Shown here one piece after another: positions 45,775 through 48,285 of a stretch of DNA of 64,000 bases; the stretch's first letter is position 1; each line of letters begins with the position of its first letter. This DNA comes from Hydrogenovibrio kuenenii DSM 12350. GTDB taxonomy: Bacteria; Pseudomonadota; Gammaproteobacteria; Thiomicrospirales; Thiomicrospiraceae. A model generated the notes under the pieces. The model saw only the letters and a program-made list of their open reading frames with translations, was not told where the DNA came from and ran no database searches. The stretch is taken from assembly GCF_000526715.1 (NCBI RefSeq), contig NZ_JAGP01000001.1, forward strand, positions 1,488,001 to 1,552,000, written 5' to 3'. The translations under genes and the position numbers were made by a program.

Positions 45775-46509
45775 CTACTCCGTGCAGATGGTGCCATCTT
45801 CACCTGCAAACTCTTTTAAACGAGCTTCATCTAATATACTGATTTCTTTCTTTTTCCAGCTGAGCACATTCAAATTATTAAGTTTTGCCAAGATTCTAGA
45901 TACCGTTTCCGGTGTCAAATTCAAATAACTTGCGACATCTCTATGCAAAATATTTAAACGGAATCTCGTGTGTAAGTAGCCACGAGATTGGTATTTTAAT
46001 GACATTGACCAAATAAAATAGGCCAAACGTTGCTCGGCAGTTTTTTGCGTTAAAAGAGACGTATACATTCTTGTACCGACTATTTCTTGACTCATCAAAT
46101 TGAAAATTTGAACATAAAGATTCGGCACTTGTGTCGCTAGGCTCGAAAGCTGGTCATAAGGAATTTCACAAACTGTAGTGACATCAAGCGCAACTGCATA
46201 GAATTGATAATCTTGATAAGCAATAGAGTCCATACCGACAATATCACCAGGCAAGTAAAAACCATGAATTACTTCAATATTGTTATGGTCGTATGAAAAC
46301 AACTTAATCGCACCCGCCCTAACAGCAAACAGCGATGTAAATTTTTCACCCGCTTTAAACAGATACTCTCCCTTAGTAAGGGATGGCTTGCGATTAACCA
46401 ATTCGTCTAATTGAGACAGATCAGTATCGTGCAACCCATTAGCAAAACAGATTTTCTGCAATCCACAGTTTGCACAACTCGCAGTGTAATGTATGGCAAT
46501 ATTTCCCAT
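45775..46509 (-). CDS. fnr: FNR/ANR-type oxygen-sensing transcription regulator
   Basis: This Crp/Fnr-family protein should sense oxygen through a [4Fe-4S] cluster. With the ATG at 46509 it has 244 residues and four cluster Cys: C12, C15 and C21 (CANCGLQKIC) and C114 (VCEIPYDQL), all at the FNR positions. The effector domain is followed by the dimer helix and a C-terminal HTH with the FNR-type recognition helix LNLTPETVSRILAKL (E, S and R contact TTGAT half-sites). A TTG two codons upstream is the only alternative start. It likely controls microaerobic or anaerobic respiration genes. Confidence 0.93.
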   Translation of the reverse strand: MGNIAIHYTASCANCGLQKICFANGLHDTDLSQLDELVNRKPSLTKGEYLFKAGEKFTSLFAVRAGAIKLFSYDHNNIEVIHGFYLPGDIVGMDSIAYQDYQFYAVALDVTTVCEIPYDQLSSLATQVPNLYVQIFNLMSQEIVGTRMYTSLLTQKTAEQRLAYFIWSMSLKYQSRGYLHTRFRLNILHRDVASYLNLTPETVSRILAKLNNLNVLSWKKKEISILDEARLKEFAGEDGTICTE

Positions 46510-46742
46510 ATACAAAATTCTTAACCTAAATCAACTTTTAAATTTTTTGCTATTTTAACAAAATACTCATTCCCCACATTATTAATTACACAAAACATCA
46601 TTAGCATAAAAGTAAGAAGGTATTTAGTAACAATTGAGTTTATTTTTGTGCACCATTTTTGCAGCAATAAAACTTAATTTTCACATCAAAAAATTTAATA
46701 CAAAAATACATTTCTTCAACATTTTTTAGCCTTTAAATTTTT

Positions 46743-46763
46743 AGTGATTAATTTTTAATCACT
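46743..46763. repeat. Perfect palindrome AGTGATTAA-TTT-TTAATCACT
   Basis: Nine-base perfect arms flank TTT. It lies about 230 nt upstream of the fnr start and 320 nt upstream of the kinase-Rieske start. It could be an operator; it does not match the FNR consensus (half-site GTGAT with 9 nt between halves). Confidence 0.5.
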
Positions 46764-46820
46764 TTAAAAAAGATTAACTATTTTTAGGCACTTACCTCTA
46801 GGTTGCATTATTTTAACCAC

Positions 46821-46852
46821 AAAGTTATCCACAGCTTCTGTGGATTAACTTT
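46821..46852. repeat. Inverted repeat with a DnaA-box word
   Basis: AAAGTTATCCACAG (46821-46834), CTT, then CTGTGGATTAACTTT (46838-46852) is an inverted repeat that is perfect except for one inserted T. The left arm contains TTATCCACA (46825-46833), a perfect DnaA-box word; the right arm is a one-base-insertion variant. It may bind DnaA, or act as an AT-rich hairpin with trailing Ts. Confidence 0.5.
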
Positions 46853-47023
46853 TTACTGCAATTAATAGAATAACCCCTAATACAAACAAGGTAAATACAT
46901 TTAATTTCAACAACTTATAGTTTTTTTCTAGAATACAATAGCAATAAAAAAACTAATTTTTAAATTCTGCTGTCAAGATTTTTTTTAAATTTATTCACCG
47001 CTTCGTTTTGGTGCGCAATCTCG

Positions 47024-47051
47024 TTCGTAAAAATTCGGTTTATGTTAAAAT
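47024..47051 (+). promoter_or_regulatory. Weak candidate promoter for the kinase-Rieske gene
   Basis: TTCGTA (47024-47029), 16 nt, TAAAAT (47046-47051). It would start transcription near 47058, which fits translation from the ATG at 47083 and not from an in-frame ATG upstream at 47008-47010. Confidence 0.3.
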
Positions 47052-47082
47052 TCGTGCCAATTTGAAAGTTTCTGAGGTAGTT

Positions 47083-48285
47083 ATGGCTAAAATTTTAGGG
47101 ATCGGCAATGCAATCCTAGACGTCATCTTGACGACATCGCATTACCCAAAGGAAGATGAGGAGCTTCGTGCTGAAAATCGTCAGTTCCAAGTTGGTGGAA
47201 ATGTTTGCAATTCACTTTATGTCTTAAGTCAACTCGGACACGAAGCTACCATTGCAACCACTATCGCGAGTGACGATGCTTCAAAACAGCTTTTGAACGG
47301 TCTAAAGACCCGACAAATCAATACTGAGCATACTCAACGCTTCATTCAAGGACAGACCCCTACATCTTACGTTATCCTCAACCAAGAAACAGGTAGTCGA
47401 ACCATTACTCACTTTCGGGATTTACCAGAACTAAGCTTTGACTTCTTTGCAAAAATTGAAGTTGAAGACTATGACTGGCTTCATTTTGAAGGACGTAATT
47501 TAGAACACTTATCGGGCATGATGAATATTGCCAAGACATTTTTGACACACCAGCCGATTTCTCTTGAAGTAGAAAAAGCTCGCGATGGTATTGAAGAACT
47601 TTTCCCGCAAGCCAATCTATTGATTTTTTCACACCACTATGCCCGGCAAAAAGGCTACAGCGATGCCTCTGCTTTATTGAAAGCAATTAAGTCACAAGCG
47701 CCAAACAGTCACTTAGTATGTACTTGGGGGAAAGAAGGTGCTTGGTTCTGCACTGCCGGCGGTGAAATTATGCACCAACCCATTCATGAAATTCCACAAA
47801 CGATTGATACACTTGGAGCTGGTGACACGTTTAATGCGGCACTCATTAACGCGCTGATTCAAAAACATGACCTAGCCAGTGCTGTTAATGAAGCATCCAA
47901 ACTTGCTGCCAGAAAGTGCCAACAAATTGGCTTTAACAACCTATTAACAGAAATCAAAGAAAAACAACCTCTTGCAAACGTTAATCAAGTGAACAATTCA
48001 AAAGTGCTTATCGTACCTTGTGCGGACTTACCCCACTCTGTCATTTTGATTAAGCATGAGGATCAAGTAAAAGCCTACCAAAACAACTGTCCTCATCAGG
48101 ATGTGCCTTTAAACGAAGCTTATAAAGTTGATGTTAATCCGTTTGAAAAGACCATGAAGTGCTCTGTGCATGATGCTTTTTTCTCAATTGAAGATGGTGT
48201 CTGTATTGAAGGACCATGTATCAATGACGAATTAGAAATCGTCTCTATTGAAATAGATGAAAAGAGTGATATTTATCTAGCCTAA
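47083..48285 (+). CDS. Ketohexokinase-like PfkB sugar kinase fused to a Rieske [2Fe-2S] domain
   Basis: The 400-residue protein has two domains. Residues 1-295 are a PfkB/ribokinase-type kinase with GGNVCNSLYVLSQLG (38-52), the ketohexokinase-like DWLHFEGRN (131-139) and the catalytic DTLGAGD (242-248, base D248). After a short linker, residues 307-400 form a Rieske-type domain with C336-P-H338 and C360-S-V-H363, the four [2Fe-2S] ligands, plus C374 and C379. The frame is continuous, with no stop or shift at the junction. GAGG precedes the ATG at 47083; the longer frame from 47008 adds a non-conserved extension. The substrate is unknown; the Rieske part could be redox-sensing or structural. 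Confidence 0.88.
   Translation: MAKILGIGNAILDVILTTSHYPKEDEELRAENRQFQVGGNVCNSLYVLSQLGHEATIATTIASDDASKQLLNGLKTRQINTEHTQRFIQGQTPTSYVILNQETGSRTITHFRDLPELSFDFFAKIEVEDYDWLHFEGRNLEHLSGMMNIAKTFLTHQPISLEVEKARDGIEELFPQANLLIFSHHYARQKGYSDASALLKAIKSQAPNSHLVCTWGKEGAWFCTAGGEIMHQPIHEIPQTIDTLGAGDTFNAALINALIQKHDLASAVNEASKLAARKCQQIGFNNLLTEIKEKQPLANVNQVNNSKVLIVPCADLPHSVILIKHEDQVKAYQNNCPHQDVPLNEAYKVDVNPFEKTMKCSVHDAFFSIEDGVCIEGPCINDELEIVSIEIDEKSDIYLA

Follow-up and report, generated by a model that had tools for sequence, protein, structure and literature searches.

It is among the ketohexokinases that the closest described relatives of the kinase reported here are found, and the human and mouse enzymes (KHK; 2hqq, 9p6q) have in common with it the same fold, the pocket residues and the GAGD motif, at 30–32% identity over about 295 columns. 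According to passages of PMC11332825, human KHK-A is a dimer that is inactivated by a change to alanine at D15, N42 or N45, that has its activity reduced by changes at R141 and K174, and in which D258 has a catalytic role, while an excerpt of PMC2651755 states that Tyr112 of KHK shuts the cleft behind C6 of fructose. Next after KHK, both by sequence and by fold, comes the sulfofructose kinase YihV of E. coli (7ag6), also of the PfkB fold, but with a lower similarity (E 4.5e-19) than that of the mammalian ketohexokinases, which are the best solved relatives of the kinase by sequence (E 3.4e-47). We know of no Rieske part in YihV. For the second part of the protein, the Rieske ferredoxins of dioxygenases (3gce, 1vck, 1fqt), T4moC and NirD share the Rieske fold and its ligands, whereas the family described here carries a GxCxxGPC motif and scores under the NCBIfam cut-offs. 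In chloroplasts, the redox state of ferredoxin and thioredoxin controls the sugar-phosphate enzymes of the Calvin cycle, although by means of other proteins; here, in contrast, the enzyme itself would carry the cofactor domain. Both parts are of known kinds, and their union is without description in the literature searched: a full-text search, seen through titles and the beginnings of abstracts and with most subscription journals outside its coverage, gave no description of a kinase-Rieske protein, and in the literature search we also met none of a KHK-type kinase marking bacteria with the CBB and RuMP cycles.

The window, that is, the whole stretch of 64,000 nucleotides of Hydrogenovibrio kuenenii DSM 12350 that was analysed, carries both parts in a single gene. 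An earlier note, made from the letters alone, had read one continuous frame as a sugar kinase joined to a Rieske domain, and this reading holds, given that the 400-residue frame at 47083-48285 (+) runs without an internal stop from an ATG preceded by GAGG, with both Pfam matches above their gathering scores; the minus strand over the gene, translated in a single frame, is stop-rich. The motifs DTLGAGD, CxH and CxxH lie at residues 242-248, 336-338 and 360-363, exactly where that note had placed them. The features, with the basis of each call, are the following:

45775..46515, minus strand: divergent FNR-type regulator with an N-terminal C-x2-C-x5-C (Pfam cNMP_binding and HTH_Crp_2)
47083..48285, plus strand: fused gene of 400 amino acids, KHK-type PfkB kinase plus Rieske domain (Pfam; match across both domains in relatives)
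47083..47946, plus strand: kinase domain, residues 1-288 (Pfam PfkB, solved KHK relatives, fold match)
47410..47412, plus strand: His110, at the place of KHK Tyr112 (alignment of 120 kinases)
47806..47826, plus strand: catalytic motif DTLGAGD, residues 242-248, with D248 corresponding to KHK D258
47947..48000, plus strand: linker, about residues 289-306 (model confidence below 50 at 284-293)
48001..48282, plus strand: Rieske [2Fe-2S] domain, about residues 307-400, Pfam 295-381 (Pfam, separate fold model)
48088..48096, plus strand: ligand motif C336-P-H338 (invariant in 57/57)
48160..48171, plus strand: ligand motif C360-x2-H363 (invariant in 57/57)
48202..48219, plus strand: extra cysteine pair C374 and C379 in GxCxxGPC (57/57)

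The kinase domain matches Pfam PfkB over residues 1-286 (E 3.5e-35, 122.2 bits against a cut-off of 25.8), and its predicted fold matches that of KHK with a TM to target of 0.88, while none of the NCBIfam kinase equivalogs was reached, the best being the ribokinase TIGR02152 with 83.9 bits against 299.65. In an alignment of 120 related kinases, the residues matching KHK D15, N42, R141, K174 and D258 are kept without exception and the one matching N45 is kept in 119, whereas at the position of D27, 108 kinases have Asp and 12 have Asn. What sets the fusion kinase apart from ketohexokinase, besides its C-terminal Rieske domain, is Ser in the place of Ala97 and, at the C6 end of the pocket, His in the place of Tyr112, both exchanges being found in 120/120 of these kinases. 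Since His stands for Tyr112 in all of them, we call the kinase KHK-type without claiming a fructose kinase; and since the pocket is otherwise kept, its residues make a ketose 1-kinase likely, with a sugar whose far end may be unlike that of fructose. That the kinase is catalytically active we consider very probable.

The tail was recognized by Pfam as Rieske (PF00355) over residues 295-381 (E 5.7e-10, 39.4 bits against a cut-off of 20.3), and its four ligands are invariant in all 57 kinase-linked Rieske domains. A separate model of residues 291-400 (pLDDT 73.4, below 50 at model residues 49-65) had Rieske proteins or Rieske-bearing oxygenases and oxidases as its 50 best fold matches listed, including Rieske ferredoxins, arsenite-oxidase small subunits and PetC-like proteins, and among the matches listed the TM to query ranged from 0.40 to 0.60, with a best E of 1.7e-4; we assign a Rieske fold to this predicted tail with moderate confidence. 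The joint model of both domains (pTM 0.65, pLDDT below 50 at the linker) contained no trusted contact between kinase and Rieske. The conserved ligands argue strongly for a ferredoxin-like [2Fe-2S] domain, and it is with high confidence that we expect this part to bind the cluster. The earlier note was right in taking the kinase as ketohexokinase-like, by its nearest sequences and folds, and the C-terminal domain as Rieske, by Pfam match, ligands and the fold match of the separate model; the retention of all four ligands by relatives, for which it had asked, was found in 57 of 57 kinase-linked domains. The extra cysteines C374 and C379 are invariant in the same 57 domains, and in a wider set of 68 rows, to which 20 Rieske genes not located beside the kinase belong, 67 have the full GxCxxGPC, the 68th row ending at a contig edge. 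The aligned pair is absent from the five best solved Rieske rows, which represent four different proteins, 3gce having the second Cys only. The GPC falls at what we take to be the position of the proline loop that lies over the cluster of Rieske proteins, and C374-C379 is a possible redox-active disulfide beside the cluster.

Within the order, a match across both domains was obtained in 62/62 genomes searched, and the fusion is present also in records L031-L034. A frameshift had been named beforehand as a finding that would undo the fusion. Because the fusion recurs in all 62 genomes, a sequencing error in the window's genome is excluded as its cause, and we rule out that two genes were joined by a frameshift or by faulty assembly, an explanation of practically negligible probability even though the pair often consists of separate adjacent genes elsewhere. 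In 60 of the 62 genomes the match is free of internal stops, and the other two copies are broken: in G787 the copy falls into two parts near residues 74-83, while that of G777 (the same as locus L172) loses its frame just past CxxH, with the four ligands kept and the Cys pair gone. D248 and the four Rieske ligands are invariant in the 34 aligned members of the order, and the fused protein of the window is 92% identical to that of Hydrogenovibrio sp. JE_KL2. In four close pairs, dN/dS was 0-0.03 for the Rieske and 0.03-0.10 for the kinase; over 561 pairs, the mean dN was 0.306 and 0.388, respectively, and the Rieske identity exceeded the kinase identity in 468 of them. In summary, the fusion is old and maintained in the order, and purifying selection acts on both domains, on the Rieske at least as strongly as on the kinase.

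In a phylum sample of 398 genomes, 51 matched at E 1e-12, and outside the order the sole strong match was G599, of the same class (E 1.2e-70), the next one reaching 3e-22. The two parts were then counted separately in a sample of 369 genomes of the class (Gammaproteobacteria), taking Rieske family matches at E up to 1e-15: the kinase clade occurs in 102 genomes (108 matched, from which G125, G144, G168, G236, G246 and G357 were dropped for having a Rieske match alone or a distant kinase match), the Rieske family in 141 (142 less one without a recorded position), and both in 59. The GxCxxGPC Rieske family (L140-L159) consists of small proteins widespread in the class (142/369 genomes), often without the kinase. 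Of the 59 genomes with both, 39 have kinase and Rieske side by side or fused, in 25 families that include the window's own, and the two parts occur together more often than expected by chance (odds ratio 3.1, p 2.5e-6, kinship ignored). Neither part needs the other, since the kinase also occurs without the Rieske family (43/102 genomes) and the Rieske without the kinase (82/141). In 86 kinase neighbourhoods, all but L172 from outside the order, the Rieske gene lies directly downstream on the same strand in 29, upstream in one, is fused in six (L071, L081, L082, L085, L097 and L172, the last being the broken copy of the order) and is not within reach in 50, some of which are at contig ends; these 86 are made up of 66 plus 20, 12 of the latter having been picked for known adjacency, so that the shares are no frequencies.

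The fusion is the hard-wired form of a pair made elsewhere by two neighbouring genes, and it probably has several origins, perhaps three: in a kinase tree of 98 rows, which holds 13 of the 34 order members and leaves L172 out, pairing needs 20 changes, four of them forced by well-supported branches, and fusion needs three, one of them forced, whereas in the Rieske tree fusion needs four, with one forced. The fused Rieske domain of the order is far diverged from the separate genes (branch 2.39). This divergence, together with the dimeric state of human KHK-A given in part of PMC11332825, would fit a cluster that serves only stability or docking, for instance in the assembly of a kinase dimer, which we regard as quite improbable, given that ligands and both extra cysteines invariant in 57/57 go beyond the needs of a scaffold and that 43 of the 102 kinase genomes manage without such a Rieske.

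The neighbouring genes do not name a pathway, and a fixed operon partner was rejected, as the neighbours of the kinase vary between loci. The FNR-type gene divergent from the fusion was found nearby in 25 of the 34 loci of the order, a few of which are short. An A+T-rich intergenic stretch of 567 bases (46516-47082) precedes the fusion gene. A link to redox state had been thought attractive in view of the FNR gene. Redox control as such stays plausible, but a link to the FNR gene is unsupported: the simple consensus of an FNR box, TTGA-N6-TCAA, is absent from these 567 bases and from 600 bases upstream in nine relatives, and FNR control of the fusion was dropped for this reason. Elsewhere, the kinase neighbours are a DAO-family oxidase and a pentapeptide protein by Pfam, and an adenylate kinase, QueG-like, Fur-like and a 100-aa zinc-ribbon membrane protein as judged from the letters alone. 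In 20 loci, the gene immediately before the kinase encodes a protein of about 100 aa that has CxxC pairs and hydrophobic stretches; none of these loci, among them L079, L083, L084, L088, L101 and L110, has a Rieske neighbour, and the two of these proteins that were searched had no Pfam match. Many further conserved neighbour clusters are opposite-strand shadow ORFs of the simple gene caller and were ignored. The kinase-Rieske pair is preceded by a large protein (about 1,300-1,700 aa) that has cNMP-binding and rhodanese domains and, at its C-terminal end, an FGE-sulfatase domain; it also stands before the kinase alone in L106 and before the Rieske alone in L143, while in L113 the FGE domain alone was found. 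It was located as follows:

L121:3-5006 and L106:2-4396: large FGE protein, by Pfam
L072:332-5164 and L143:203-4813: large FGE protein, by likeness

It is here that a different role of the Rieske part, the main rival reading, has to be weighed, namely that it carries electrons for a third protein (an oxygenase, a reductase or a redox sensor) with the kinase as a travelling companion, the fusion keeping the two in equal amounts and neither part controlling the other. We judge this somewhat unlikely, both for the carrier role and for such a purpose of the fusion, but it is supported in that the closest solved relatives include the Rieske ferredoxins of dioxygenases and monooxygenases, that the family is without the kinase in 82 of its 141 genomes and in varied contexts in 20 loci, and that its gene is at times beside the large FGE-domain protein. 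Against it, adjacency to one same kinase is repeated in 25 families, and the family falls far under the NCBIfam cut-offs for dioxygenase and nitrite-reductase (NirD) ferredoxins, with a best of 19.5 bits against 150 for the fusion and of 35.9 against 74.65 for four separate Rieske genes. An oxygenase partner was recognized neither among 13 kinase neighbours scanned by Pfam, which include one DAO-type oxidase beside a Rieske-less kinase, nor among the neighbours of orphan Rieske genes as inspected by eye, and this speaks weakly against such a role.

Another indication of the role of the kinase comes from the company it keeps at the genome level. The large subunit of RuBisCO is present in 182 of the 369 class genomes, 94 of which carry the kinase, and it occurs in 94/102 genomes with the kinase against 88/267 without it (odds ratio 24, p 8e-27, kinship ignored). 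The kinase genomes belong to 55 families, in 50 of which a kinase genome bears RuBisCO. This link belongs to the kinase and not to the pair, since it holds with and without a Rieske neighbour (34/39 with the Rieske adjacent, 60/63 without), and for the Rieske family itself the link is weak (88/141 with it, 94/228 without, and 36/82 for the Rieske without the kinase). Three of the eight kinase genomes that lack RuBisCO, all of family f3, have the RuMP hexulose-6-phosphate synthase above the cut-off; none of the 16 controls reached this level, and nine of them matched weakly below it. Altogether, a marker of the CBB or RuMP cycle is present in 97 of the 102 kinase genomes; of the five without either, three are less than 90% complete (one of these more than 5% contaminated), and G241 and G390 are not among the incomplete ones. 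No cbb gene was recognized beside the kinase by Pfam on 13 neighbour proteins only. A genome survey of the CBB cycle (PMC7895386) gives sugar and carbon-storage families as enriched, including PF05116 (sucrose-phosphate phosphatase, S6PP), and its main text leaves PfkB unmentioned. The kinase clade tracks ribulose-cycle carbon assimilation, as a correlation with kinship ignored, and we think it reasonably probable that the role of the kinase is tied to the CBB and RuMP cycles.

With regard to sucrose, we compared 80 RuBisCO genomes, one per family, taking 40 from the 94 with the kinase and 40 from the 88 without it, and found S6PP in 27/40 and 13/40, respectively (p 0.003). The same commonness of S6PP, together with a pocket that fits fructose, speaks for an ordinary fructose kinase of sucrose and fructose turnover with an incidental Rieske tail. 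However, S6PP is without a match in 13 of the 40 kinase genomes, His stands for Tyr112 in 120/120, conservation of the tail equals or exceeds that of the kinase, and a sucrose operon in the window's own genome includes a fructokinase-like PfkB gene of its own, all of which makes such a fructose kinase improbable. In that operon (L184:6064-11978), SPS-SPP-like, second SPP, PfkB and alpha-amylase-family genes stand in a row, the last being read as amylosucrase-like. Because this operon carries another PfkB gene, the fructose derived from sucrose in the window's organism is probably served by that separate kinase, and we rejected the fusion as the organism's sucrose fructokinase, the other gene sitting between SPP and the alpha-amylase-family gene. 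Likewise rejected was a stand-in for the classical phosphofructokinase, since PF00365 is present in 36 of the 40 kinase genomes and in 32 of the 40 without the kinase.

We propose instead an enzyme in two parts, belonging to bacteria in which one-carbon units are assimilated by ribulose-phosphate cycles. Its N-terminal KHK-type kinase would phosphorylate C1 of a ketose, as the conserved pocket strongly suggests, and its Rieske part, with the Cys pair near the cluster loops, would report the redox state to the kinase, a signal that could adjust how much of a free or stray ketose enters or leaves the carbon cycle. As a whole, a ketose 1-kinase of CBB and RuMP bacteria whose redox-active partner tunes it is our preferred but tentative reading, and the tuning of the kinase by cluster and Cys pair, taken by itself, is equally tentative; that both parts also live alone would be expected of an optional regulator and no less of an electron carrier that serves another client. 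Against this reading stand the occurrence of either part without the other, a RuBisCO link that holds whether or not a Rieske gene is adjacent, the lack of a recognized cbb neighbour among the 13 proteins scanned, the loss of the Cys pair in G777 and the joint model with no trusted contact between the domains. The most specific form of the proposal, in which the redox state of the electron-transport pool acts through cluster and Cys pair as a switch on the kinase and the substrate is a ketose other than fructose that has leaked from the CBB or RuMP cycle, we consider rather unlikely in its entirety.

If redox control of the kinase is true, it would be a new tie of sugar-phosphate metabolism to electron supply in chemolithoautotrophs, and if the redox-gated form is true, a single protein would provide the kind of control that ferredoxin and thioredoxin exert on the plant Calvin cycle. 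The pairing of the kinase with the Rieske domain hints at a sugar metabolism that carbon-fixing bacteria may adjust to their redox state. Even without redox control, this uncurated kinase points to a step or a salvage reaction around the carbon cycle.
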